64,000 bases of DNA from Artemia franciscana (taxonomy: Eukaryota > Arthropoda > Branchiopoda > Anostraca > Artemiidae). The stretch covers positions 38,494,867 through 38,558,866 of the forward strand of contig NC_088868.1 in assembly GCF_032884065.1 (NCBI RefSeq). Direction: 5' to 3'. A program made the translations under genes and the position numbers. Below, one piece after another: positions 16,087 to 63,528 of the stretch (within the stretch, counting starts at the first letter, position 1; each line of letters starts with the position of its first letter). The notes under the pieces were generated by a model. It was not told where the DNA came from, did not search any database, and saw only the letters and a list, made by a program, of their open reading frames with translations.

Positions 16087-17797
16087 ATTAAATAAAAAAA
16101 AACAAGTTTTTTTCAACTGAAAGTAAGGAGCGACATTAAAACTTAAAACGAATAGAAATTACTTCGTATATGAAAGGGGCTGCTTCCTCATCAACGCCCC
16201 GCTCTTTACGCCAAAGTTTGACGCTTTCTCTCAACTCTTCTTTTTAAAACAGTAAAAAACTTTAGCGTAAAGAGCGGGGCGTTGATGAGGAAGCAGCCCC
16301 TTTCATATACGAAGTAATTTCTGTTCGTTTTAAGTTTTAATGTCGCTCCTTACTTTCAGCTGAAAAAACTTGTTGTTTTTTTTTATTTAATTTCTGAACG
16401 TCTTTGAATCAATGCATGTTTTGATTTTGGGTCTCCGCAGAGAAATAATTAAAACGAAATTTGCATATTTTTTTTTTTTTTTGCTAAATGGCTTTCTCAT
16501 AATTTTGATCGAATGATTTTGATAAAAAAAAGAGCGGGGGAGGAAGCCTAGTTGCCCTCCAATTTTTTGGTTAATAAAAAAGGCAACTAGAACTTTTAAT
16601 TTTTTACGAATCTTTTTATTAGTAAAAGATATACGTAACTTATAAACTAGCTTACGTAAAAAATTTTTTATTCTTATGTTTTTATTACACATATGAGAGG
16701 GTTCGCCCCCTCGTCAGTACCTCTCTCTTTACACTAAATCTTAAATTTTGGCCCAATTCATTAAGAATGAGCCCTGAATCACAAAAGCCGTAGAATAAAT
16801 AGTTGACATTACTAAAAATACTTTAGCGTAAAGAGCAAGGTATTAGGAGGAGGTGAGACCCTCATATGGGTATTAATTTCTGTTCGATTTAAGTTTTAAT
16901 GCTGATCCTTACTTCCAGCTGAAAAAAACTTCATATTTATTTTTTCGTTGTTTTTTTTTCAAATAATGCTGGTAAATCATGCGCTCCCTTCATGGAAATT
17001 TTCTTCCCCCATGATAAATTCCTCGATGGAAAGTTCCCCCAGTATATCCCCCTCTTTTCAAACCCTCCCCCAACCAAAAAATCCTCCTGAAAACACCTGT
17101 ACATTTCCCAATAGCCATTACTATATGTAAGCACTGGTCAAAGTTTGTAACTTGTAGCCCCTCCCACGGTGACTGTGGAGGAGTAAGTCGTCCCCAAAGA
17201 CATAGTTATAAGGTTTGTCGACTACGCTGAATAAAATGGCTATCTCAGAATTTTGATCCGTTGACTTTGGGAAAATAATTAGCTTGGGAGGGGGCCTAGG
17301 TGCCCTCCAATTTTTTTGGTCACTTAAAAAGGGCACTAGAACTTTTCATTTCCGTTAGAATGAACCCTCTCGCAACATTCTAGGACAACTGGGTCGATAC
17401 GATCACCCCTGGGAAAAAAAAAACAAATAAACACGCATCCGTGATCTGCCTTCTGGCAAAAAATACAAAATTCCACATTTTTGTAGATAGGAGCTTGAAA
17501 CTTTTACAGTAGGGTTCTCTGATTCGCTGAATCTGATGGTGTAATTTTCGTTAAGATTCTATGACTTTTAGGGGGTGTTTCCCCCTATTTTCTAAAATAG
17601 CACACATTTTCTCAGGCTCGTAACTTTTGATGCGTAGTACTAAACTTGATGAAACTTATATATTTAAAATCAGCATTAAAATGCGATTCTTTTGATGTAG
17701 CTATTGGTATCTTTAGATATTATTATATTTTTTAGAGTTTTGGTTTCTATTGAGCCGGGTCGCTCCTTACTACAGTTCGTTACCACGAACTGTTTGA
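16087..17797 (+). mobile_element. Family A repeat, reference full-length copy
   Basis: About 1.7 kb, non-coding. It starts taaataaaaaaaaacaag and has a near-perfect palindrome at 16087-16398 whose arms contain agtaaggagcgac and its complement, plus cttcctcatcaacgccccgc and its complement. The body follows. The right end reads gccgggtcgctccttact and then the hairpin CAGTTCGTTACCACGAACTG and TTTGA. The 13-mer AGTAAGGAGCGAC near the left end is therefore repeated inverted near the right end. No transposase is encoded, so it depends on another element. A terminal 8-bp hairpin with variable flanks is reminiscent of Helitron/Helentron right ends, but no rolling-circle protein is visible in the window. 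It appears inserted between a PLE terminal repeat (15805-16086) and PLE coding sequence (17935 on). Confidence 0.85.
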
Positions 17798-17934
17798 TAT
17801 TTGCCTTCTCTGCAGCTAATCTTGTAGTTCTTTTGATTGGGCTTGTTTTTATTCGTTCCTATTTTTTTCATTTTGAATTAGATTATTTTCTATAATTCGT
17901 TTATTGCACATAGGGTTGAGCGTGTAGTCACCCA

Positions 17935-18260: not shown

Positions 18261-19120
18261 AAAGAATTGAGAAGATTCATTATACTTAAATTACTTGTAA
18301 ATACAACACGTAAATTGTTCTTTAAACAAATTTTTTTCAGTTTTGAAGTAATTTTCTGAATATAAGGTAGGTAAATCGTGCTTGTGGGTTTATTCGAATC
18401 GTTTACTGGTGTGGGATTTAAGGCTTTAGAAGAATGCATCTTTAATCTTTGAGCAATAACAGTATTTATGAGAGAAATTGGGTACCCGTTGTCAAAAAGT
18501 ATGTCTGTAATAAAGTTTAATTCTTTTTTAATATACGGCTCTGAACAGATATTAAGTACTCTATCCACAAGAGATATTGCCACACCTCTTTTAACCAGTG
18601 GATGATGGTTAGATTTGAAGTGAAGGTATCTATTATTAGAGATTTTATTAGATTTTATCTATTATTCTATATAGATTATATACTATTATTCTATTATTCT
18701 TAGATTTTATTCTATTATTAGATTTTATTCACACTACGTATTATCAATACATCTAAAAAATGTATGTTTCCATCTGTTTCGGTCTCTAGAGTGAATTGCA
18801 GGTTTCTATCGTAAGTATTTAAATGTTCTAGAAAACCTTTAAGCTCACTTTCGCCATAATTCCAAACTGAAATTACGTCGTCTATGAAACGTCCCCAAAA
18901 CACATGATTAAGAAAATGCGAATCCAGGGCCCAATTTTCAGGATTCTCGACGAAAATATTTGCGAGTAGGCCTGATAGAGGTGCTCCAATAGGAAAGCCC
19001 CTTACCTGTTTGTAATATTAATCTTGAAACTGGAAGTGCATGGAATAGTTGTTAAATAATTTAATCAAATGCATGAGAACATCAATATCTAGACCTATCG
19101 CTGACTCTTATACCCCCTTT
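18257..19120 (-). pseudogene. PLE reverse transcriptase fragment
   Basis: The - strand order is GLDIDVLMHLIKLFNNYS (about 19060), GFPIGAPLSGLLANIFVEN (about 18960-19015), then FWGRFIDDVISVWNYGESEL and FLEHLNTYDRNLQFTLE (18718-18903). A downstream part ends LPYIQKITSKLKKICLKNN (about 18310-18370). F-I-D-D-V is the catalytic palm motif in PLE RTs, which are related to telomerase. The 5' third of the RT is missing. A tandem agattttattctatta-type A/T repeat (about 18625-18730) interrupts the frame between palm and thumb. Same family as the copy at 25440-26376, with which it shares the FWGR..DD.ISVWNYG block. Confidence 0.85.
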
Positions 19121-19184: not shown

Positions 19185-19749
19185 TATTAAAGGGGTTGCC
19201 TCCTCCTTAAGACTTTGTTCTTTAAGCTAAAGTTTTTTTTTTCATATAATTGTTTTTAAACATTTTGTTTCAGGAATCATTCTTAAACTATAAGGAATCA
19301 TTTTTAAACTTCTCTCACGGGCCCTCTCACGGAATAAAAGGACCACTGAGTCGATACGATCACCCCTGGGAAAAAAAAGATAAAAAAAACACGCTTCCGC
19401 GATCTGTCTTCTGGCGAAAAATGCGAAATTCCACATTTTTGTATATAGGAGCTTGAAACTTCTACAATAAGGTTCTCTGATACGCTGAATCTGTTGGTTT
19501 GATTTTCGTTAAAAATTGTATTACTTTTAGAGGGTGTTTCCCCCTATTTTCTAAAACGAGGCAAATTTTCTCAGGCTCGTAACTTTTGATGGGTATAACT
19601 GATCTTGATGAAACTTACATATTTAAAATCAGCATAAAAATGCAATTCTTTTGATGTAACTATTGGTATCAAAATTCCGCTTCTTAGAGTTTCGGTTACT
19701 ATTGAGCCGGGTCGCTCCTTACTACGGTTCGTTACCACGAACTGTTTGA
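19185..19749 (+). repeat. Family A repeat, internally deleted copy
   Basis: It begins with remnants of the palindrome (gttgcctcctccttaagac, gctaaagttttttt), then jumps to the tcgatacgatcacccctggg block. It ends gccgggtcgctccttactac and the hairpin (CGGTTCGTTACCACGAACTG) at about 19727. Its right edge abuts and truncates the PWWP copy at 19750. Confidence 0.8.
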
Positions 19750-20061
19750 CTGAGTTAGACCCTAATTTATCGTTTGCTTTCAGGGTTAAAAAAGTCTTAG
19801 AAAGAATTTCATAAATTTCAGTGGTATTATCAAGCTCCACAATTGCTTTTTTGACAGCAGGCGTGGATGAATCTTTCGTTTTAGGTTGTATTCTTGAAGA
19901 TTTGCATCTATTAACCCAAATTTATCGTGACTACCGTAACAAAAGACCAGATAAGTGGGCTTTCCGTGCGAATCCTTTCTTATTTGCATAATTTTAACGG
20001 GCCATAGGGGGTAGTTCTTGAATTTAGCTAGCGCAACATCAAACTGCTTGAAACGCTGCAT
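19750..20061 (-). pseudogene. Second PWWP-domain copy, truncated
   Basis: From ATG at 20061 the - strand reads MQRFKQFDVALAKFKNYPLW, P, then PTYLVFCYGSHDKF and LIDANLQEYNL. This is a PWWP domain with the signature Y-P-L-W-P and the beta-strand LVFCYGS. After a frameshift, VKKAIVELDNTTEIYEIL continues and aligns with VNKAFQELEIFPEIYL in the copy at 20699-21520, so both derive from the same kind of protein. The rest is cut off by the family A right end at 19749. PWWP domains bind DNA and methylated histone H3 (often K36me). A possible short intron upstream (donor-like aaaggtgag near 20115) was noted but not relied on. Confidence 0.65.
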
Positions 20062-20698: not shown

Positions 20699-21520
20699 TT
20701 AAGACATTTTCAGGGGGAAAACCTTTATCTCCACTAAGAGAGCTGTAGGGTTGGGTAAACGAAAATGTTGAATAGAAAGAATTTGATCACTCATAAGAGC
20801 ACTCAAGTCCATCTTGCCCCTTATAATATAGTGCATCGTTACTTTAGGGTCAACACCAGGGGCCTGTTTGACCCCTACAAATACAAGGGAATCAAGCTGA
20901 GCTTCTTGTTGATATTCATCAAGGCTGTCTTCTATTTTTTCAATACGATTTTCAAGCGGCTCTATTTGAGCTCTTAACTCGTTAAGTACTTTGCCAATCT
21001 TATCAAATTTTCCATTGTATTCTACTGAAAATCCATCATAAACTTGGGATATTATCTGTTCCGCGGTACCTGGGTTGATGCTATTTTTTTGTGCTACCTT
21101 TTCAGTGACCAATTTCTCGATGTCTTTGAGCATATTTTGCTTTGTCTATGCTAACTCTTGTTCCGTAGAAACTAACTTTTCAACAACAACAGCTACCGAT
21201 GATATTTCAGAATTTAAGCCAGTTATAGCGGAGGGAGTGAGTTTTTTTTTATACTATAAGTAGATTTCCGGGAAAATCTCCAGTTCTTGAAATGCCTTGT
21301 TAACGCTTTTTTCTGTTTTCTGTGATGCTTCTTTAGACTTTTCCACATAGAGAACTAAATTTACTTCTAAAACTGTCTGAAGATTGTAGGATCCATAACA
21401 AAAAACTAGAAATTTTGGTACTTTTTCTAATTGGGCATTAACGTCTACAATTCTTTCTGGCCAAAGTGGGTAATTTCTGAATTTTGCCAACGCCAATTCC
21501 CCTTTCTTGAACTTGCTCAT
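20699..21520 (-). pseudogene. PWWP domain + coiled coil + ORF1-like C-terminus, two TAG stops
   Basis: A single - strand frame of 274 codons from ATG (21520) to TAA (20699). Only two in-frame TAG codons break it, at about 21254-21256 and near 21146. Residues 1-60 form a PWWP domain (GELALAKFRNYPLWPERIVD, then KFLVFCYGSYNL). A linker follows (VNKAFQELEIFPEIYL). Residues ~130-205 are heptad-rich (KIGKVLNELRAQIEPLENRI, EKIEDSLDEYQQEA). The last ~70 residues (LDSLVFVGVKQAPGVDP, SDQILSIQHFRLPNPTALLV) resemble in pattern the RNA-binding C-terminus of LINE ORF1 or baculovirus-FP-like transposon proteins (L-EQY-RR---l-I-Gvpe...dI...hRl). The reading is a retroelement-type nucleic-acid chaperone carrying a chromatin reader. 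The PWWP call is solid; the ORF1-like call is inference. Its 3' end abuts the PLE repeat at 20690, and a LINE 3' end lies 730 bases upstream. Confidence 0.65.
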
Positions 21521-21862
21521 TTTAAACTTCAGAACTGGCTAACTTAACTTAAGAAAAATAAGAAGTCAAGTATCAAATTTCAGACCTTCTAGAAATTTCT
21601 GCCGTACTCTTATATCCAAAGCTGCTATCCAGTAAACCACAAAATAGTCCATAAATAACAATGAGTTATTGCAACTTAATAATAACAATGTGTTATAACA
21701 TTGTAATAAGCAGCAATCCAGTTCAAATACGATAATTAAATATAGCCAGAAACTGGTTTTTCACATAGGTAACTCTCCAAGTACGCAGAGATGTTCACTG
21801 AATGAATGCTACTGTAGTAGTACATGTGTCCGCGAGGATTGATTTTTTTGTCCTCTTTTTAG
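21521..21862. other. Sequence upstream of the PWWP frame, nothing identified
   Basis: AT-rich and non-coding. Tandem-like aataacaatgagttat/aataacaatgtgttat occurs near 21655-21700. Confidence 0.35.
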
Positions 21863-22251: not shown

Positions 22252-24610
22252 TTCTTATTTCTTATTTATTTATTTTCTTTATTTCCCTCAAAAATGAGGA
22301 GTACGCTACAATATAATATAAAGAAAAGACAAATTATAACACTTACAATCAAAACCTATCAAATACTGATCAAACACTTAAAAAGAGAAAAAAAGATACA
22401 AAAACACTTGCTAAATAGTTTAGCCTATGAATCATCAAGACCCAGAACTGTTACTAAAAACGGAAATAAATTGTGGCCTAAAAGGTTAATTTTTGCCATA
22501 TCTTCAAATGTTTTATATTTTTTCTTTATACAGACAACAGGATCCTTCACTTTGAGCTTTAAAACAATCTCAATGTTAATAAAAGAAAGGGGAAAACCAA
22601 GTATAAATTTACAAAATTTTAAATAAGAAACTTTAATAGGCGAAAGATCAGAAGTTCTGAAATTACGAAAGAGGAGGGACGGGAACAATACGTGAGGCAG
22701 AGCAATAGCGATATACATACTACCATGGACGTCACGACGGTAAAGACCCCGAAAACGACTTAAAAGACCAAATGTCTTGCGTAGTTTCATCTGAACATGC
22801 TGAACCAGGACTAGTTTAAAATCTCTTTTTGAAGCAGAATAAGGTAATCCCAAATAAGTGACTATTGGCGACGACTGAAAAATAACACGATTGCCGCAAT
22901 CGAGAGTTGCCCTGACATTATCCTCTGAACAATTTACAACAAAAAATTGACATTTTTCAAAACTGATAGAAAGGCCAAAACCTTTTAAACAATTAATTAA
23001 AATATTAAAACTAGAAACAAGACTAGACTTGGACCGGCTTAGAAGGATAATGTCATCACCATATGCAATGTAAGACAGATTTCGAGATAATGAAACAAAA
23101 GAGCAGGAAAGAGAATTAAGGGCAGTAGCTAAACATGAATTGAATATATAAGGAGAAATAATTCCTCCTTGTCTAATTCCTCTACCCACTTGAGTTAATT
23201 TGGACTGAGATGAAGAGGAACTCGGACAAATACGGATCTTTAATCCAGAATACCAAGAGCGAAGGACTCGAATGACAGCTAGGGGCAATCTAGCATGGAT
23301 TAAAGTGAGCAGTGTAAATGTATGAGAAATGATATCAAAGGCCCCTATGATATCAATCAAGAGGGCGTATAGCGGTTGACCAGAGATTCTCGCTTCTTCC
23401 ATAACTTTGCTGAAAGATGCATGGGCGTGGTCACATCCCAAACCTCTCTTGAAACCAACTTGATTAGAACCAGCGCCAAGAATTTCAAGAAGATCCTTCA
23501 AACACAACTCTATGCCAATATAGAATGGCGATGGTACTAAACCAGCAATAAGTAAAAGGTTGAAAAATGCCAGTAGAGTAAAAAGAAAAGAAGAAGGAGC
23601 AAATTTGAGGTGATTAGCAAATACGTCATCATGATCCTTAGCCGACTGCACCTTTAAGGTTTTGATTGCTCTACGTAATATATCCTCGGAAATCCTGTAA
23701 TCAGTTGAAAAATTCTTCAACCTTTCATCTAATTGCAACACAACACTGTTAGAATCGTGTGAAGTCGACAACTTAGAAAAATAATTTTCCCACTCTTTTA
23801 GCGATGGTGTGGAATTAGTATCAGGCATGTTAGTCCGCCTATTGCCCCGGAAAACATTCCAAAGGAGATTCTTGTCCTTGTCGTTATCAATGTTTGAAGA
23901 AGCTTCTTCTATGATCAGGTTATTATGACGACGGAGCTCCGCTTGGAATTTGGCCTTTCTCTTTTTCAGTAGCAAAAAAGCTGGATGCGAGTCTCTAGGC
24001 TTACCTAGCGCCCGCCATTCCCAATACACTTGTTTTGCCACCTTATTAGAATGTACTAAAAAGGATAGAGGCTCCAAAAAGGTTTCTGTGCGCCCAATCT
24101 TATCCTATTAGTAGGAAAAACTGCTGCAGCACCATACTTTAAGCGATGGATTAATTCAAAATAAAGACAATTAATAGTCAAAGAGGGATTACTGTCCATT
24201 GAATCCAAACTATCAGGAATAAAAACTTTATCAATTTAAGTCCCAACTCTTTCTTGGTGAAGTGGTTTAAAATTTGGATTCCAATCAACCCGATTAAAAA
24301 ATTTAGTAAGCTTATTCCCAGAAAAACGAACTAGGGAAGGACGAGAAGGCAAAAGGGGTAAAAGGAACTGAAGTGGCATGTGGTCACTAACGGGAAAGTC
24401 TTCAATTACAATAACCACAGGCAAAGGATCACTTGGGTTAGAAGAAAAAACGTGATCAATATTAATTGTACTACTACTCCAATGAATATAAGTAAAATCC
24501 TGGGACTTCGGTAAAACAGAAAAACTAGAAGACAAGATGATAAAATTGTACCCCTTTCATTTGCTATGTTTGGATCACAGTTACCATCACCTAAAATATA
24601 AATAACTTCG
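22252..24610 (-). pseudogene. LINE (APE-type non-LTR retrotransposon), 5'-truncated, nearly open ORF2
   Basis: Encodes endonuclease plus reverse transcriptase for target-primed reverse transcription. The - strand starts at GDGNCDPNIANERGT (about 24550-24600), then YIHWSSSTINIDHVFSSN and PVSDHMPLQF (APE domain end with S-D-H). An in-frame TAA falls at 24236, and a frameshift near 24085 separates DKVFIPDSLDSMDSNPSLT and RLKYGAAAVFPTNRIRLGAQ from the 550-codon frame 22425-24077. That frame holds QVGFKRGLGCDHAHASF, motif A LLIDIIGAFDIISH, motif B GRGIRQGGIISPYIFN, motif C YIAYGDDIILL and motif E YLGLPYS. Active-site Asp residues are intact. The 3' tail is A-rich with aataaataaataag repeats at 22252-22290. 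The 5' end is cut by the PLE end at 24611. Exact clade is uncertain (CR1/Jockey/I-like range). Confidence 0.85.
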
Positions 24611-24800: not shown

Positions 24801-25450
24801 ATAGTTTATTGCTCTTATTTTTTTCAAAGCAACAGTGGAAGCAAATCTCCTTGACCTTTTCGGTTCCGGTTCATTAGATTTATCTGACATATTACGTGGA
24901 CAGAGGTCATAGCTCTGAGGTGAGGTAATATTTACTTTATTTGACCTCAGTAAATTATCAAAAATTGAATTTAATCTAAGTTTGCCTGTATCTCTGTTTA
25001 TGGAATTATTCTTGAATAATTTTTTTATAATTTCGATTGTTTCCCTGAAAATTTTTTTTTAAACCTTGGTCCCTAGAAATCAAAGAAACATTTTCAAACA
25101 AAACAAAATGATTTGGAAAATTATAGATATGTTCCGAGAGGGCCGACGTGAAATCTTCAGGTTTGGTATTTTGCTTTAAAGACGATGAAATAGAATTATG
25201 ATGTTGTAGCAATCTCAATTTTAAATTCTGGTTAGTACGTCCCACAGAAGAGCTTCCACAAGTACATGGGATTTTATAAACCCCACTTTGTTGCTCTACG
25301 GAAGTCCGATTCTTTTCAGAATTTAAAAAACTGGCCAAAGTATTACTACCTCTTAAAGCTATCTTTAAGCCATTATTTTGTAAAATTCTTTTGAGTTTTC
25401 AACTCAAACCTGGAACATATGGTAGATTAAAATCTCTTTTAACAACAATA
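24794..25450 (-). pseudogene. PLE thumb and GIY-YIG endonuclease, 3' part of ORF
   Basis: From about 25450 the - strand has the RT thumb piece (LPYVPGLS-like, then LKRILQNNGLK). ALRGSNTLASFLNSEKNRTS and the nuclease start SGVYKIPCTCGSSSVGRTNQ follow. FTSALSEHIYNFPNHFVLF carries the His-His half of the Cys-Cys/His-His motif. A poly-A frameshift near 25060 leads into ETIEIIKKLFKNNSINRDTG and a Lys/Arg-rich tail (KRSRRFASTVALKKIRAINY) ending at about 24794. The second YIG is SVG, and stops occur in the thumb, so it is inactive. This is the most complete PLE C-terminus in the window. Confidence 0.85.
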
Positions 25451-26376
25451 ATTCCTTTTACATTAAGAATTCGTCAGAACTTGTAAAAAAACTAAAAGAA
25501 GCGAAGATTTATTCAAATTCTATAATTTCAAGTTTCGACAATGTGTCAATGTATACGAGCATCGATTTAAAAGCCGCAGAAATTCTTCTTGAAAGAAAGA
25601 TACTAAGAAATTTGGACTTAATTAGTGGTGAAACAGTTTTGGAAGTCGATGTAATTATGAATTTAGTTAGGTTGTGCAACATGTTCTCTTACTTTTTTCA
25701 ATTCAGAGGGAGTTTTTTCGAACAAGTAAATGGTTTACCCATGGGGGCCCCTTTAAGTCCTTTATTAGCAAATTGTTTTGTAGAAAATATTGAAACAATA
25801 GCGTTAGATTCATACTTTTTAAAACATAAATTTTGGGGGAGATATATGGATGACATAATTTCAGTATGGAATTATGGAGTGGAGGAATTAAAAAGTTTTT
25901 TAGAACATCTTAATTTTTGGGGAGGTGATTTAAAATTTACAGTAAAATTAGAAGAGGATAATAAACTTCCTTTTCTGGATGTTCTTCTTTAAAAAAATAA
26001 AAATAGTCTGGATTTTAAGATTTACAGAAAACCTACCAACAATAACAGATTTTTGTCGTTTTTTCTCCGATCATGCAAGCCAAGTAAAAATTAGTTTAAT
26101 CATATCATTAACTGACCGCATTTTTAGAATTTGCTCTCCAAAATTCATTGACAGGAATTATTGTTGTTAAAAGAGATTTTAATAAGTAACCATTATCCTG
26201 GTTGGTTAATTGACCAGACTTTTTCGAAAAGAAGGAAAAAATTTCAAGAATTTTCTAACGATATTCTGGAAACAACAGAAAAGAAAAATATTTTTTGTTC
26301 TCTACCATATGTTCCAGGTTTGAGTGAAAAACTTAAAAGAATTTTACAAAATAATGGCTTAAAGGTAGGCACTTGA
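25443..26376 (+). pseudogene. PLE reverse transcriptase, opposite strand to the adjoining endonuclease
   Basis: The + frame 25543-25992 reads MYTSIDLKAAEILLERKILR (palm motif A with S-I-D), then VNGLPMGAPLSPLLANCFVE (motif B), then KFWGRYMDDIISVWNYGVEE (motif C, M-D-D), and DNKLPFLDVLL. A frameshift near 25985 continues into FCRFFSDHASQVKISLIISL and the thumb WLIDQTFSKRRKKFQEFSND, IFCSLPYVPGLSEKLKRIL, ending at 26376. Palm motifs are intact. The copy meets a - strand copy of the same family head to head at about 25440-25460, and both contain the LKRILQNNGLK segment. They are therefore two insertions or one inverted rearrangement, not one ORF. The + copy stops abruptly where another LINE begins. 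Confidence 0.85.
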
Positions 26377-27344
26377 TGAGGGTAAAATTCCAGTTGCGAT
26401 TTTCCTTGATGTCAAAAAGCGTTTTACAGCACATCACATTAGTATGTGGTCACGTGTCCAAAATGAAACACATAGGGATACGAGGAAACAATTATCATCG
26501 GTTTGTAACTTATTTGTCTGAAAGGTCTGTGCATATTGTCCCCAAGCTTCAAGATCACCACAGTGTTGATTTTGATATCCCACAAGGGTCTATCCCATAA
26601 CCTCTTTTATTTCTTATATCCATCAATATTTTTTCATTGCTGCATCGGAACAAACTAAACCAAGTTGCTGTAGTATTTGTGATCAAAACTGTGTCCCACC
26701 TGGTGAGGCAGCTCACCCAGTGCGATCGCAATTTGCGGATAATTGTACTCTAGGGTGTTCAGAATTTAAGGAATCTTCCCTTATCATCAAAATATATTCT
26801 GTCCTAGAAAGAACTTAGCTTGGCTTAATGCTACTCGACTTGCCCTAAATCTTTCTAAACTCAGTCTTCTTTTATCCATATCAGCTGCTTCGTGTCCTTT
26901 GTTTCAAACTATTTCTACAACTCACGGTGAAGGAACTCGTCCCCCTGACAGACATGTTCGATTCCTGAGTATTTTATTGGATGAAAATCTTTCTTTTAAA
27001 CATAGCTGTGCTCTTGTCAAACTTAAGGTCTACAGAAAAATGGTTCAGTAATAAAGTTCCTCTTTCACTGTCTCATTCAGCCTTATATTTACTACTATCC
27101 AACAGTATGGTAATCGACATTCACTTCTTGTACCTTCCCAGTTTTCAAAACATATTATAGAGCAATTAAATTAGTAGCTGAGGTGACAGAATAGCTCAGC
27201 ATTAATGTATTAAATAGTCAATCCAAATATATCTTTCTTTCCTCTTGTTTCATTGTCAAGTATTTTCATGGGCTACTCCCTAAATTCTTCAAACAATTAT
27301 ATCTTTTAAATCCTGAAATACGAAACGAAACTTGTGTTTCTTTC
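26377..27344 (+). pseudogene. Jockey-like LINE RT fragment, part 1
   Basis: Decayed non-LTR RT: DEGKIPVAIFLDVKKRF (motif A region), GIRGNNYHRFVTYLSERSVH, VDFDIPQGSIP (motif B), then QFADNCTL near 26730 (motif C, the second Asp replaced by Asn). RHVRFLSILLDENLSFK-like sequence follows, then KQLYLLNPEIRNETCVSFK up to 27344. It has multiple stops and frameshifts. A family A element is inserted at 27345 and the LINE resumes at 28887. Confidence 0.75.
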
Positions 27345-28886
27345 AAACAGTTCGTGGTAACGAACTGCAGTAAGGAGCGACCCGGCTCAATAGTAACCAA
27401 AAAGTCTAAAAAATAACGAAAATCACACCATCAGATTCAGCGTATCAGAGAACACTACTGTAGAAGTTTCAAGCTCCTATCTACAAAAATGTGGAATTTT
27501 ATATTTTTTGCCAGAGGGCAGATCACGGATGCGTGTTTATTTGTTTGTTTTTTTTTCTGTTTGTTTTTTTTTCCCAGGGGTGATCGTATCGACCCAGTTG
27601 TCCTAGAATGTTGCGAGAGGGTTCATTCTAATGGAAATGAAAAGTTCTAGTGCCCTTTTTAAGTGACCAAAAAAATTGGAGGGCACCTAGGCCCCCTCCC
27701 ACGCTAATTATTTTCCCAAAGTCAACGGATCAAAATTCTGAGATAGGCATTTTATTCAACATAGTCGAAAAACCTTGTAACTATGTCTTTTGGGACGACT
27801 TACTCCCCCACAGTCCCCGTGGGAGGGGTTACAAGTTCAAAACTTTGACCAGTGCTTACATATAGTAATGGTTATTGGGAAGTGTACAGGCGTTTTCAGG
27901 AGGATTTTTTGAATGGAGGCAGGGGTTGAGAAGAGGGGGATATGCTGGGGGAACTTTCCATCGAGGAATTTGTCATGGGAGAAGAAATTTTCCATGAAGG
28001 GAGCGCAGGATTTACTTACATTACTTAAAAAAAAACAATGAAAAAGTTTTTTTTCATCTGGAAGTAAGCAGCAGCATTAAAACTTAAAACAAACAGAAAT
28101 TATTGCCCATATGAGGGGCTCACCTCCTCCTAATACTTCGGTTTTTATGCTAAAGTATTTTTAGTAATGTCAACTATTTATTCTGCGGCTTTTGTGATTC
28201 AGGGGTCATTCTAAATGAATTGGGACAAAATTTAAGCTTTGGTGTAAAGAGCAAGGTACTGACGAGGGGGCGAACCCCCTCATATATGTAATAAAAATAT
28301 AAGCATACAAAAGTTTTTACGTAAGCTAATTTATAAGTTACGTATATCTTTTGCTTATAAAAACATTCGTAAAAAATTTAAAGTTCTAGTTGCCTTTTTA
28401 ATTAACCGAAAATCAGAGGGCAACTAGGCTTCCTCCCCGCTCTTTTTTTCTCAAAATCATTCGATCAAATTTATGAGAAAGCCATTTAGCCAAAAAAAAA
28501 TATATACAAATTTAGTTTTAATTATTCCTCTGCGGAGAGCCATAATCAAAACATGCATTGATTCAAAAACGTTCAGAAATTAAATAAAAAAAACAAGTTT
28601 TTTAAATGAAAGTAAGGAGCGACATTAAAGCTTAAAACGAACAGAAATTACTCCGTATATGAAAGGGGCTTTTCCTTCTCAACGCCCCGCTCTTTACGCT
28701 AAAGTTTTTTTACTGTTTTAAAATGTAGAGTTAAGAGAAAGAGTCAAACTTTAGCGTAAAGAGTGGGGCGTTGAGAAGGAAAAGCCCCTTTCATATACGG
28801 AATAATTTCTGTTCGTTTTAAGTTTTAATGTCGCTCCTTGCTTTCATTTAAAAAACTTGTTTTTTTTTATTTAATTTCTCTCAGAA
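27345..28886 (-). mobile_element. Family A repeat, near full-length reversed copy in a LINE
   Basis: Right-end hairpin at about 27350-27369 (CAGTTCGTGGTAACGAACTG), full body, and palindrome at about 28590-28886. The arms read ggggcttttccttctcaacg and its complement with one mismatch seen (agagtgggg). LINE sequence continues on both sides, so the insertion point is defined. No clear target-site duplication was found. Confidence 0.9.
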
Positions 28887-37567: not shown

Positions 37568-38728
37568 AAGAACGGTTTCATTAGTAAAAACTATACGTAA
37601 CTTACAAATTAACCTACGTAATGAATTTTTATATTCGTATGTTTTTATTACGTATATGATGGGGTTCAGCCCCTCGTCAATACCTCGCTCTTTGCACTAA
37701 AGCTTAAATTTTATCCCAATTTCATAAGAATGACCCCTGAATCAAAAAGACCGTGGAATTAATAGTTGAAATTACTAAGAATATCTTAACGTAAAGAGTG
37801 AGGTATTACGAGGAGGTGAACCCCTCATATGCGTATTAATTTATGTTTGTTTTAAGTTTTAATGCTGCTTCTTACTTTCAGCTGAAAAAAAAAATTTCAT
37901 ATTTATTTTATCATTATTTTTTTCAATAATGCTTGAAAATCCTGCATCCCCTTCATTGAAATTCTCTTCCCCCATGACAAATTCCTCATGGAAAGATCAT
38001 CCCACGTAACCTTCCCCTCTCAACTTCTCCCCCCTCCCAGCAAAGGAATCCCCCCGAAAATGTCTGTACGCTTCCCAATAACTATTACTATATGTAGACA
38101 CTGGTCAATGTGTGTAGCTTGAAGCCTCTCCCACGGGGACTGTGGGGGAGCAAGTCGTCCCCGAAGACATACTTGTTAGGATTTTTGACTATGGTGAATA
38201 AAATGGGCATCATTGAATTTTGATCCGGTGATTTTAGGGGGGATTCCAGCATGGGAGGGGACGTAGATATCCCCCAACTTTTTGATCGCTTAAAAAGGAC
38301 ACTAGAACTCTTAGTATCCGTTAAAATGAGCCCTCTTGTGACATTCTAGGACTACTGAGCCGATACGGTCACCCCTAGGAAAAAACAAAAACAAAAAAAA
38401 AAGATAATTCCACATTTTTGTAGACATGAGCTTAAAACTTATACATAAGGTTTTTCAGACACGCTGAATCTGATCACGTGATTTTTGTTATGATTGTATG
38501 ACTTTTAGGAGGGTTTTCCCACTATTTTCTAAAATAAGACAAATTTTCTCAGGCTTGTAAATTCTCATGGGTAGGATTAAAGTTAATGAAACTTATATCT
38601 TTAAAATAAGCATTAAAATGCAATCCTTTTGATATAACTATTGGTTTCAAAATTTTATTTTCTTAGTCTCTGTTACAATTGAGCTGGGTTGCTCCTTACC
38701 ACAGTTCGTTACCACGAGCTATTTAATA
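37568..38728 (+). repeat. Family A repeat, right part of the interrupted copy
   Basis: Runs from aagaacggtttcattagtaa to a decayed right end (CAGTTCGTTACCACGAGCTA) at about 38702. Body blocks are in standard order. Confidence 0.8.
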
Positions 38729-46984: not shown

Positions 46985-48575
46985 AAATAAAAAAAAAACA
47001 AGTTTTTTTTAACTGAAAGTAAGGGGCGACATTAAAACTTAAAACGAACAGAAATTACTTCGTATGTGAAAGGGGCTGCTTCCTCATCAACGCCCCGCTC
47101 TTTGCGCTGAAGTTTGACTCTTCTTCTTTTTAAAATAGTAAAAAACTTGACTCTTCTTCTCAATTCTTCTTTTTAAAATAGTAAAAAACTTTAGCGTAAA
47201 GAGCGGGGCGTTGATGAGGAAGCAGCCCCTTTCACATACGAAGTAATTTCTGTTCGTTTTAAGTTTTAATGTCGCTCCTTACTTTCAGTTAAAAAAAACT
47301 TTTTTTCTCCGCAGAGGAATAATTAAAACGAAATTTGTATATTTTTTTTTGGCTAAATGGCTTTCTCATAGTTTTGATCGAATGATTTTGAGAAAAAAAG
47401 AGCGGGGAGGAAGTCTAGTTGCCCTCCGATTTTTTGGGTAATTAAAAAGGCAACTAAAACTTAATTTTTCACGAATCTTTTTATTTGTAAAAGATTTACG
47501 TAACTTATAAATTAGCTTACGTAAAGAACTTTTGTATTCTCATGTTTTTATTACATATATGAGGGGGTTCGCCCCCTCGTCAGTACATCGCTCTTTACAC
47601 TAAAGCTTAAATTTTGTCCCAATTCATTAAGAATGACCCCTGAATCACAAAAGCTATAGAATAATAGTTGAAATTACTAAAAATACTTTAGCGTAAAGAG
47701 CGAGGTATTAGGAGGAGGTGAGCCCCTTATATGGGGAATAATATCTGTTTGTTTTAAGTTTTAATGCTGCTCCTTACTTCCCGCTGAAAAAACTCCAGCT
47801 GAAAATTTATTTTTTAATTTTTTTTTAGATAATGCTAGTAAATCCTGCGCTCCCTTCATGGAAATTTTCTTCCCCCATGACAAATTCTCGATGGAAAGTT
47901 CCCCCAGCATATCCCCGTCTTCTCAATCCATCCCCCAACCAAAAAAATCCTCCTGAAAATGCCTGTACATTTCCCAATAACCATTACTATATGTAAGCAC
48001 TGGTCAAAGTTTGTAACTTGTTGCCCCTCCCACGGGGATTCTGGTGGAGTAAGTCGTCCCCAAAGACATAGTTATAAGGTTTTTCGACTACGCTGAATAA
48101 AATGGCTATCTCAGAATTTTGATCCGTTGACTTTGGGAAAATAATTAGCGTGGGAGGGGGCCTAGGTGCCCTCGAATTTTTTGGTCACTTAAAAAGGGCA
48201 CTAGAACTTTTCACATCCGTTAGAATGAGCTCTCTCGCAACATTCTAGGACAACTGGGTCGATACGATCACCCCTGGGGAAATAAACAAACAAATAAATA
48301 CGCATCCGTGATCTGCCTTCTGGCAAAAAATGTAAAATTCCACATTTTTGTAGATAGGAGCTTGAAACTTCTACAGTACGGTTCTCTGATACGCTGAATC
48401 TGATGGTGTGATTTTTGTTAAGATTCTATGACTTTTAGGGGGTGTTTCACCATATTTTCTTTAAAAAAAACGCAAATTTTCTTAGGCTCGTATTTTTTGA
48501 TGGGTAAAATTAAACTTGATGAAACTTATATATTTAAAATCAGCATTAAAATGCGATTCTTTTGATGGCTATTGG
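46985..48575 (+). mobile_element. Family A repeat, 3'-truncated copy
   Basis: Left end taaataaaaaaaaaacaag. Palindrome at about 46985-47305 with a duplicated cttgactcttcttc spacer and a short deletion after the right arm. Full body, stopping at tttgatggctattgg (48575) without the terminal hairpin. It inserted into family B on its left and is fused to the outer end of the giant palindrome on its right. Confidence 0.85.
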
Positions 48576-56149: not shown

Positions 56150-57719
56150 TACCTTAGGTTCTCCTGAGCCATCAGCGGCACTTAGGGCATCGACAAAGTC
56201 TCTCCATTCGTCACGAAGCTCTGCCGCTGCAGTGATATCTTCCCATTGTATCGTGAGGGAAATGTTGGCCTCTTTCGGGTACCGATTTTACTGCCTCCGT
56301 AGTGTGTGCTTTGGTCGGCCTCGTCTTCCTTCAGATTGCCACTGATACACTCTTGAGGGCAGTCTGTCTTCGGGCATGCGTAAAACCTGACCCAAATATG
56401 TTCATCTCCATTTCTTGATAGCTTCGGTCACTATGGGCTGGTTCGTTTTCAGTCGGATTTCCCTATTAGTAATTTTCTGATGCCAACTCATATTGAGGAT
56501 CCTTCGAAGGAGAGTGTTTTTGAATGAATGGATATGTTTTTCCAGTTGTTGGTTGAGTTTCCAACATTCAGTGGTGTACATCAATATAGACATCACAATG
56601 CTGTCGAATAACCGTAATTTTAAACGAAGCGAGTACCTGTTACATCTCCATATTGGTGCCAGTCTTGGTGCTTGTCCAATCCTTCTCTTGATTTCAAATG
56701 TTACATCTCCAGTATTCTCTATCAAGCTTCCTAAGCATTGAAATTCTTGGACCTGTTCAGCAGTTTTATCGGAGCATTGAAGAGCTAGGGGGAGCCGGAT
56801 GTGGACATACTTTTCGATTTGTTGACGTTAATTGGCAATCCGACCTCTCGGGCTTTTTATTAGATTTCATCAAATAGCAGCTGTAATCGATCTTTGGTGT
56901 CTTCTAGCAGTTCTATATCATCTGCAAAGTCAAGAGCTGGAAGTTGCTTGCTGCTGAGGTTTACTCCATAGCCTGTAGACTCTCTGAGTACGTAGTCCAT
57001 TACTATTATGGTGATAATACACAATGTGATAATAAAAGTGCTGATATTACACATCCTTGTTTGACATGAGTCATTATTTTGAAGTATCTTGTAACTCCGT
57101 TTTCTGTTCGTACACAGCATTCTGTTTCTTTGTACAGGGTGATAATCAGTTCTACTGTCTTGGAAGGTGTTCCACAGCATTTGAGGGTATTTCGTAGTAT
57201 TTGAGGATTTTTCATAAGATTTCCTGGTCAAGTGAATCAAAGGGCTTTTCTATGTCAATGAAAAGAAGATACAATTTTTATTCCATTCCTTTGAGTCTTT
57301 AACCAGAATTTTCAATGTAAAAATTAGGTCTGCAGATGATCTTCTAGGTCGGAACCCGTGTTGTCCATCTTGAAGATGCTGGTCCAGTTTCTGTTGTAGG
57401 TGCTGTAGCATAATAATTGAAATAAGTTTACTAGGTATTGGCATTATGCTAATGCCACTCCAGTTGCCAAAAAGCGCTTCACCTTTTTTGAAGAGCTTAA
57501 TAATGGTTCCTTTTGTCCAGTTACTGGGCACTTTCTGGTCGCTCCCTATCTGAGTTAGTAGCTCAACCTAAACTTTCATGCAGTCGCGAACTAAAGTTTT
57601 CAGCATCTCAGATGTAATGCCATCTACTCCCAGCATTCTTCCGTTCTTTAGCTTTCTGACGGTGGCTATGATTTCTTCTGAAGACGGTGGATCATCATTG
57701 CATCGAGAATCATAAATGG
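56150..57719 (-). pseudogene. RTE-like LINE ORF2, reverse transcriptase and C-terminus
   Basis: Reads leftwards: EIIATVRKLKNGRMLGVDGI (about 57660), PSNWTKGTIIKLFKKGE, GISIMPIPSKLIS, QHGFRPRRSSADLIFTLKIL (RT fingers and palm), then VTRYFKIMTHVKQGCVIS (motif B) and LDFADDIELLEDTKDRLQLL (motif C, F-A-D-D intact). ENTGDVTFEIKRRIGQA and YTTECWKLNQQLEKHIHSF follow. The C-terminus carries a WKWIGHVLRMpeD-like region in shifted frames down to about 56150. Most motifs are present, but at least four frameshifts split it. Together with 58244-58975 it forms one element interrupted by a PLE piece. Confidence 0.85.
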
Positions 57720-58243
57720 AGTGTTAGGAATTAAATTTGGGTATACAGTGAATATTCTCCGAAGTCCCTATTTAAGGAAATATTATTATTAATTCTAAGT
57801 CTGATTTTAATTGCTTCTTTAATTAAAAATGACCTTACGAAATATTATAAAAAATCAATAGATATAAATACAGAACCTGTCACAAATAGACCTATGAGAT
57901 CTGCAGCCATAAAAGCAAGGCTGGTATTAAAAACATCTTTTTAAATCATTATCTTTCATTTCAATGAATTGCCTCGTTTTATCACAATTTACTTATCAAT
58001 CCTGGTTGAACTTCGCTGAGGTAAGGATGCTGGGACTGTTTTGACAAAAATTTCATTTTAGTTTTATTGATTTTATCCTGTTGTATGCTGTTTCTTCTTA
58101 TATATTTTTGTTTTGCTGAGGATGGCCCTTGGGACATAGGGCCAAAATATTCATTCGAATTGGTTTCCCACTGTCTTGAGAAATTCCCTATTGTTCTTCT
58201 TGTTTTTGGTGTTTGTGATGGAAAGGCAGTGTGGTCTTCGTCG
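57720..58243. mobile_element. PLE fragment inserted in the RTE-like LINE
   Basis: The - strand at 57725-57800 carries a PLE ORF tail (EAIKIRLRINNNISLNRDFG, then YSLYTQI and a stop). The + strand at 58116-58152 carries a hammerhead-like region (CTGAGGA, GGCCC/GGGCC, AAAATATTC) with the G of GAAA lost. It ends with gaaaggcagtgtggtcttcg at about 58218-58240, the PLE terminus. Tail and ribozyme lie on opposite strands, so the piece is rearranged. LINE reading frames meet when it is removed. Confidence 0.7.
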
Positions 58244-61830: not shown

Positions 61831-63528
61831 GAGAATTAAATAAAAAAAACAAGTTTTTTTAACTGAAAGTAAGGAGCGACATTAAAACTTAAAACGAACA
61901 GAAATTACTTCGTATATGAAAGAGGCTGCTTCCTCATCAACGCCCCGCTCTTTACGCTAAAGTTTGACTCTGTCTATCAATTCTTCTTTTTAAAACAGTA
62001 AAAAACTTTAGCGTAAAGAGCGGGGCGTTGATGAGGAAGCAGCCTCTTTCATATACGAAGTAATTTCTGTTCGTTTTAAGTTTTAATGTCGCTCCTTACT
62101 TTCAGTTAAAAAAACTTGTTTTTTTTATTTAATTTCTGAACGTTTTTGAATCAATACATGTTTTGATTTTGGCTCTCCGCAGAGGAATAATTAAAACGAA
62201 ATTTGCATTTTTTTTTTTTTTTTTGGCTAAATGGCTTTCTCATAATTTTGATCGAATGATTTTGAGAAAAAAAGAGCGGGGGAGGAAGCCTAGTTGCCCT
62301 CCGATTTTTTGGTTAATTAAAAAGGCAACTAGAACTTTTAATTTTTTACGAATATTTTTATTAGTAAGAGATTTACGTAACTAATAAATTAGCTTACGTA
62401 AAGAACTTTTGTATTCTCATATTTTTATTACATATATGAGGGGGTTCGCCCCCTTGTCAGATCCTCGCTCTTTACAATAAAAGCTTAAATTTTGTCCCAA
62501 TTCATTAAGAATGACCCCAGAATCACAAAAGCCGTAGAATAAATAGTTGAAATTACTAAAAATACTTTAACGTAAAGAGCGAGGTATTAGGAGGAGGTGA
62601 GCCCCTCAAATGGGTAATAATTTCTGTTTGTTTTAAGTTTTAATGCTGTTCCTTACTTCCAGGTGAAAGTACTTTTTCATATTTATTTTTTCATTGTGTT
62701 TTTAAATAATGCTAGTAAATCCTGCGCTCCCTTCATGGAGATTTTCATCCCCCATGATAAATTATCGATGGAAAGTTCCCCCAGCATATCCCCTTCTTCT
62801 CAACCCCTCCCCCAACCAAAAAAATCCTCCTGAAAACGCCTGTACACTTCCCAATAACCATTACTATATGTAAGCATTGGTCAAAGTTTGTAACTTGTTG
62901 CCCCTCCCACGGGGACTGTGGGGGAGTAAGTCGTCCCTAAAGACATAGTTATAAGGTTTTTCGACTACGCTGAATAAAATGGCTATCTCAGAATTTTGAT
63001 CCGTTGACTTTGGTAAAATAATTAGCGTGGGAGGGGGCCTAGGTGCCCTCCAATTTTTTTGGTCACTTAAAAAGGGCACTAGAACTTTTCATTTCCGTTA
63101 GAATGAGCCCTCTTGCAACATTCTAGGACAACTGGGTCTATACGATCACCCCTGGGAAAAAGAAAAAAAAAAAAACAAATAAACACGCATCCGTGATCTG
63201 CCTTCTGGCAAAAAATACAAAATTCCACATTTTTGTAGATAGGAGCTTGAAACTTCTACAGTAGGGTTCTCTGATACGCTGAATCTGATGGTGTGATTTT
63301 CGTTAAGATTCTATGACTTCTAGGGGGCGTTTCCCCCTATTTTCTAAAATAACGCGAATTTTCTCAGGCTCGTAACTTTTGATGGGTAAGACTAAACTTG
63401 ATGAAACTTATATATTTAAAATCAGCATTAAAATGCGATTCTTTTGATGTAGGTATTGGTATCAAAATTCCATTTTTTAGAGTTTTGGTTACTATTGAGC
63501 CGGGTCGCTCCTTACTACAGTTCGTTAA
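61831..63528 (+). mobile_element. Family A repeat nested within another family A copy
   Basis: Complete left end (aattaaataaaaaaaacaag) and palindrome (61831-62128). Both arms carry the copy-specific change aaagaggct/agcctcttt. Full body and right end to cagttcgtta, missing only the last 10-15 bases of the hairpin. It is flanked on both sides by one reversed family A copy. Confidence 0.9.

Follow-up and report, generated by a model that had tools for sequence, protein, structure and literature searches.

Retroelements that carry a chromatin reader of their own are known, an example being the chromodomain-bearing LTR retrotransposons, whose reader is thought to steer integration. Among host proteins, HDGF, HRP2, HRP3 and LEDGF are known readers of methylated H3K36, and LEDGF tethers HIV integrase to chromatin. 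This tethering is mentioned also in PMC6877644, which, like PMC3978060, concerns host proteins. As for LINEs, Metcalfe and Casane (2014; PMC4120745) described ORF1s with PHD, esterase, RRM and CCHC domains and a reticulate evolution of these elements, and the PHD domains there raised the question of whether LINEs find their insertion sites by reading chromatin, without a functional test.

The window analysed here, a stretch of 64,000 nucleotides of Artemia franciscana DNA, contains a frame that is almost certainly the ORF1 of a LINE bearing a PWWP domain.

Results

The PWWP frame in the window

The frame lies on the minus strand (21538-20699) and is read as one frame with two internal in-frame stops, both TAG. 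An earlier note, made from the letters of the window, had described 274 codons with two TAG interruptions, giving no strand, and had picked out the PWWP motifs ALAKFRNYPLWP and LVFCYGS; both the frame and the motifs are there, and the domain matches Pfam PF00855 with 33.5 bits (E 6.2e-8; cut-off 25.6). Positions 21549-20740 align at the DNA level with positions 454-1260 of L042, a stretch of the same genome that carries a full family B copy, with 90.4% identity over 810 bp and three gap positions, so the frame is not a product of chance and represents a repeat fragment. Its protein is 84% identical to residues 1-269 of the L042 ORF1. The copy breaks off inside the RRM and lacks roughly the 80 C-terminal residues of the complete protein; the final codons before 20699 continue the open frame, but they lie beyond the homologous DNA, which ends at 20740. 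A tblastn search of the window for the family B ORF2 gave nothing beyond a match of 22% over 108 aa in an unrelated neighbouring LINE. Window 21549-20740 is thus a dead fragment of a family B LINE ORF1, and it and its neighbours are laid out as follows.

20740..21549, minus strand: family B LINE fragment with a few bases of 5' flank, PWWP, coiled coil and RRM start, no ORF2 (90.4% DNA identity to L042)
21254..21520, minus strand: PWWP with the helix region after it, running from the Met of ORF1 as far as the first in-frame stop (PF00855 E 6.2e-8; ORF1 alignment)
20740..21145, minus strand: coiled coil, then the beginning of the L1-ORF1p-like RRM (ORF1 alignment; domains from the model of a family B relative)
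19749..20053, minus strand: second PWWP-ORF1 fragment, family G, frameshifted (90.2% DNA identity to L073 over 306 bp; PWWP 25.2 bits, cut-off 25.6)
18718-19017, minus strand: reverse transcriptase (RT) piece
25426-25992, plus strand: RT piece
22425-24104, minus strand: RT of another LINE, the element spanning about 22425-24556

The two RT pieces at 18718-19017 and 25426-25992 are presumably Penelope-like. The earlier note had set the frame between a PLE repeat and a LINE. The adjoining LINE is not the partner of this ORF1; as a candidate it was rejected, since no ORF2 of a PWWP family comes closer to it than 22-25% identity, in matches of 108-170 aa. The second PWWP copy, said to lie about 640 bases away, is real by its DNA identity to family G, although its score stays just below the cut-off, and the fragment stops where another repeat (19321-19749) starts. 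A tandem duplication was considered for the two copies and rejected, because they belong to different families, B and G.

Weak pieces akin to the ORF2s of the PWWP LINEs are seen elsewhere in the window, at 26372-27284 on the plus strand (30-47% to family D) and at 57170-57723 on the minus strand (26-41% to family C). A repeat of about 1 kb recurs in both orientations with 76-85% identity (16774-17798, 27419-28202, 37737-38727, 47640-48575 and 62520-63527), and the same repeat stands downstream of L042 (5156-6195). Rfam gave no match at gathering score in the window or in five elements.

Full-length elements and their copies

Three of the 12 stretches fetched from the genome (L042, L043 and L049) carry an ORF1 frame of 354 codons (348 aa from the Met) followed by an ORF2 of 1014 codons, and they are 96.7-99.2% identical over about 5.1 kb; in each of the remaining fetched copies ORF1 or ORF2 is damaged by one or more stops, frameshifts or truncations. 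The L042 ORF2 matches RVT_1 (8.3e-33) and Exo_endo_phos (1.2e-8), with Exo_endo_phos_2 below the cut-off, and a Pfam search of it up to E 0.1 gave no further family and no RNase H domain. The guess that the window frame is a transposon ORF1 is thereby borne out, the full family B copies pairing the same ORF1 with an ORF2 of APE endonuclease and RT.

Copy numbers were estimated by searching the genome with its own ORF1s, and all counts are lower bounds. For family B, at least 16 full-length stop-free copies, 97-100% identical, were found with 116 of 3496 candidates scored (120 matches), the window copy appearing in the same search at 84%; for family A, at least 13 such copies were found with 112 of 3081 candidates scored (119 matches). 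When the junction of ORF1 and ORF2 served as query, all 40 matches listed for family D (181 candidates) cover at least 496 of 500 bases, and 38 of the 40 listed for family C (L044; 69 candidates) cover the whole query. The 3' ends of families A, B and D show AATAAA-like strings together with short tandem tails, which vary from family to family. Two of ten elements (L049 and L046) are flanked by target-site duplications, of 16 and 17 bp; in the other eight a crude search gave no clear duplication, which we count against our best explanation. The elements therefore show what characterises APE-type LINEs, namely an ORF2 with endonuclease and RT, an ORF1 directly upstream of it in many dispersed copies, and target-site duplication with a 3' tail, and their recent amplification is supported by the likeness of the copies. 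The earlier note had asked whether the PWWP and C-terminal parts recur together next to one RT family. They do recur together beside an RT, in the three family B copies with the 1014-codon ORF2 and in the junction matches, but more than one RT lineage is involved.

Similar strings (TCATGGTGT/TCACGGTGT) occur at the 5' ends of families B, C and D (L042:201, L044:54, L045:246), the bodies of which have diverged. Apart from the LINEs, 75 COX1 matches were seen in the genome, many on chromosome-sized contigs (e.g. G000 C4:9980752-9982092) and with open frames of about 466 aa when TGA is read mitochondrially; mitochondrial DNA has apparently been copied into the nucleus many times in large pieces. 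In the mitochondrial contig itself some 43 bases lie between cox1 and cox2, which leaves no room for a tRNA gene; such a spacing would be more in keeping with a chelicerate or myriapod than with a crustacean or insect. ARAGORN, with the bacterial code, gave nothing on part of that contig.

Architecture of the ORF1 protein

An ORF1 composed of an HDGF/LEDGF-type PWWP domain, a long coiled coil, and an RRM and C-terminal domain like those of L1 ORF1p and FP25K is supported by profile comparison and by the predicted structure. A profile of 19 ORF1 rows found the HDGF PWWP as its best match in the PDB (3.7e-13), with LEDGF at 4.5e-12, and the LINE-1 ORF1p chains weakly (0.02-0.19). The AlphaFold2 model built from the ORF1 alignment (mean pLDDT 83.1) has a barrel, helices at 107-143 and 152-207, an RRM and a C-terminal domain, the relative placement of which is uncertain because the pTM is 0.53; the PWWP alone, modelled without an alignment, reached a pLDDT of 43.7. 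In Foldseek the top match of the full model was the HDGF PWWP (9.1e-7), with the LINE-1 ORF1p trimer in fourth place (6.7e-6), and in the viral library baculovirus FP25K came second (1.7e-5), behind a first row of poor superposition (rmsd 20.8). The predicted model accordingly has the type II layout, in which RRM and C-terminal domain come after a coiled coil, and its Foldseek matches include 2ykq and 2yko. By Pfam, Baculo_FP_2nd scored 23.1 bits (6.3e-5) in the family C ORF1, where 24 is the cut-off and was narrowly missed; PF02994, the model for L1-ORF1p, had no match in the ORF1s scanned. The end of the window frame had been likened to LINE ORF1 or FP-like proteins; in the model of the family B relative this resemblance is recovered by structure for both LINE-1 ORF1p and FP25K.

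Nine lineages

As far as they could be read, nine lineages (A, A2, B, C, D, E, F, G and H) share this ORF1 layout, the copies of E and F being frameshifted and read in pieces. Full-length ORF1 pairs between lineages are about 30-60% identical. PF00855 scores above its cut-off in A, A2, B, C, D, E, F and H and below it in G (23.4 bits). Across lineages A-F conservation is about equal in the PWWP (34-59% identity) and in the RRM and C-terminal domain (33-63%), and the PWWP of A against A2 gives a dN/dS of about 0.20, with silent sites near saturation. Among the 13 stop-free copies of family A, pN/pS is 0.32 for the whole ORF1, 0.26-0.30 for the rest and 0.58 for the PWWP, the last computed from 7 silent and 14 replacement variants and so weak evidence, which leans against strong recent constraint on the domain in these sequences.

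Two family E stretches (L068 and L069) show two PWWP starts about 640-650 bases apart, as if part of the ORF1 had been duplicated. The family C ORF1 found no relative in GTDB or IMG/VR. The genome search with PF00855 returned matches that are not all LINEs among the 150 scored (733 candidates): L001 and L005 look like host genes, which we take to be NSD-like and ZMYND-like. Two partial PWWP exons were considered as host relatives, and neither looked like an HDGF gene.

Exchange of ORF1 between ORF2 lineages

Throughout the 5' UTR and ORF1 (38-1633) element L044 agrees with L050 at 98.2% identity. Beyond that the two share no similarity, the break falling after the stop of ORF1 and before the start of ORF2. 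Five of the 40 matches listed for the L050 junction (128 candidates) span it, and the other 35 cover the ORF2 side only. Three stretches were fetched from those 35: L051 has a coiled-coil ORF1 of 322 codons upstream, with no PWWP match, L052 has pieces of an ORF1 of the L051 type, and L053 has neither ORF1. Since the junction is spanned in five copies and a non-PWWP ORF1 stands in others, it appears that a PWWP ORF1 replaced another ORF1 in an L050-type element and that the hybrid then multiplied to at least five copies.

A second and older exchange is supported by the sequences of A2, whose ORF1 is A-like (60%) and whose ORF2 is D-like (58% in RT and 56% in EN, against 31-36% to A). Tree tests with 9 and 10 rows rejected the grouping of A with A2 in ORF2 (p 2.8e-11) and of D with A2 in ORF1 (p 9.3e-61), the groupings having been chosen after the identities were seen and E and F being long branches. 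The ORF1 and ORF2 pieces of A2 stand together in L003, L007 and L048. Taken with the first exchange, these comparisons support the movement of whole ORF1s between ORF2 lineages.

The reading face of the PWWP

In PSIP1 the methyl-lysine cage consists of M15, Y18, W21 and F44, H48 and E49 affect specificity, and F44A abolished binding, perhaps through misfolding (PMC3663649). We surveyed the corresponding positions in 18 aligned rows, which are not independent because several come from one family. The M15 position is F in 18 of 18, the Y18 position Y or F in all 18 and the W21 position W in all 18; at the F44 position 16 of the 18 rows carry Cys, the exceptions being L039 (W) and L067 (Y). The His of H48 is retained by 13 rows, and an acidic residue, D or E, stands at E49 in 13. 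The positions of the DNA-contact residues K14 and K16 hold K or R in 14 and 12 of the 18 rows, family D having S and Q. Families G and H also read VFCYG. The pocket is probably altered on one wall and not lost.

Discussion

The overall explanation that we favour, a LINE with a PWWP-bearing ORF1 whose RNP is tethered to chromatin, is in our judgement quite probable. ORF1p would trimerise through its coiled coil, and its RRM and C-terminal domain would coat the LINE RNA. The PWWP domains of the trimer might then bind nucleosomes, either at the methylated H3K36 tail or at DNA whose AT-rich minor groove is narrow, and the RNP would be held on the chosen chromatin, where the ORF2 endonuclease would nick. 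That the PWWP acts as a chromatin tether seems fairly likely; a preference for H3K36 methylation could well exist, and we propose it only tentatively. We may go a step further and picture a self-tethering LINE, which brings its own LEDGF-like reader on ORF1p to deliver its RNP to a chosen class of chromatin, the ORF1 serving as a swappable targeting cassette for unrelated ORF2s and the near-invariant cage Cys perhaps marking a changed preference; we offer this as a possibility, somewhat less likely than not. Counted against the favoured explanation, besides the scarcity of clear target-site duplications, are the Cys at F44 (16/18), the lack of the K14/K16 basic residues in family D, the pN/pS of 0.58 for the family A PWWP, the score of G below the cut-off and the pTM of 0.53.

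Some of the same observations bear on other readings. The PWWP of the same LINE ORF1 might be a general nucleic-acid-binding aid, serving packaging, nuclear retention or as a chaperone of reverse transcription, with no choice of target. PWWP domains do bind DNA, the HRP3 PWWP reading minor-groove shape (PMC6547440), JASPer binds nucleic acids (PMC6877644), and the Cys at one cage position would be in keeping with such a role; however, the H48/E49 face and the rest of the cage are for the most part retained, and DNA binding as the sole role fits poorly with family D, which is abundant yet without both basic residues, so that we consider this reading unlikely, if worth bearing in mind. Alternatively, the PWWP may be directed at something besides H3K36 methylation, another methyl-lysine or silent chromatin, with the Cys forming part of a changed pocket. 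Being common to nine lineages, the Cys looks fixed and not decayed, and the remaining pocket is kept; against this, the closest solved relatives, HDGF, HRP2, HRP3 and LEDGF, are known H3K36me readers (for LEDGF and HRP3 see PMC3663649 and PMC6547440), and we regard a different target as improbable.

That we have here a host HDGF/LEDGF-family gene next to transposons, or retrocopies of such a gene, is scarcely credible, even though HDGF and LEDGF provide the closest solved PWWP structures, because the copies are dispersed, are joined to ORF2 at a fixed junction and have element ends and duplications. The copies are many, dispersed and intronless, where a host orthologue would have been single-copy and intron-bearing. 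An integrase-binding domain as in LEDGF was also considered for the C-terminus and rejected, Foldseek finding none there and the C-terminus being L1-ORF1p-like.

We return, then, to the PWWP-ORF1 LINE with a chromatin-tethering RNP, and to how it stands among described systems. None of the papers listed by our literature searches deals with a PWWP in the ORF1 of a LINE; the layout may be recorded in Repbase, in preprints or in the subscription literature, most of which lies outside those searches. The nearest described elements are LINEs of the L2/CR1 lineages with PHD-bearing type II ORF1s (type IIC), in which, as here, a chromatin reader has been added to an L1-ORF1p-like ORF1 and ORF1s have been exchanged (PMC4120745); the word PWWP does not occur in the main text of that paper. 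The reader of type IIC is a PHD and here it is a PWWP, and the exchange here, unlike that of type IIC, involves a recent hybrid of at least five copies. What is new, as far as those searches reach, is the PWWP as reader, reader-bearing LINE ORF1s being already known with PHD. The exchange is shown in copies still 97-99% alike, and one ORF2 lineage with both non-PWWP and PWWP ORF1s provides a comparison for ORF1-directed targeting.

Human LINE-1 ORF1p (2ykq, 2yko) likewise combines a coiled coil with an RRM and a C-terminal domain (Foldseek 6.7e-6; TM normalised by target length 0.62, 192 columns), with weak sequence similarity (best 0.02), and to our knowledge it has no PWWP. Baculovirus FP25K resembles the C-terminal half of the PWWP-ORF1 (Foldseek 1.7e-5), and we know of neither a PWWP nor an ORF2 accompanying it. 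LEDGF/p75 (PSIP1), the HDGF-related proteins and fly JASPer have a PWWP of the same subgroup, but these are host proteins with other C-termini, whereas here the element itself encodes the reader. The chromodomain LTR elements bear their reader on the integrase, and here it sits on the ORF1p of a LINE. If the tethering proposed above is true, these elements may choose their place of insertion by reading chromatin, as an element-encoded parallel to LEDGF-guided HIV integration.
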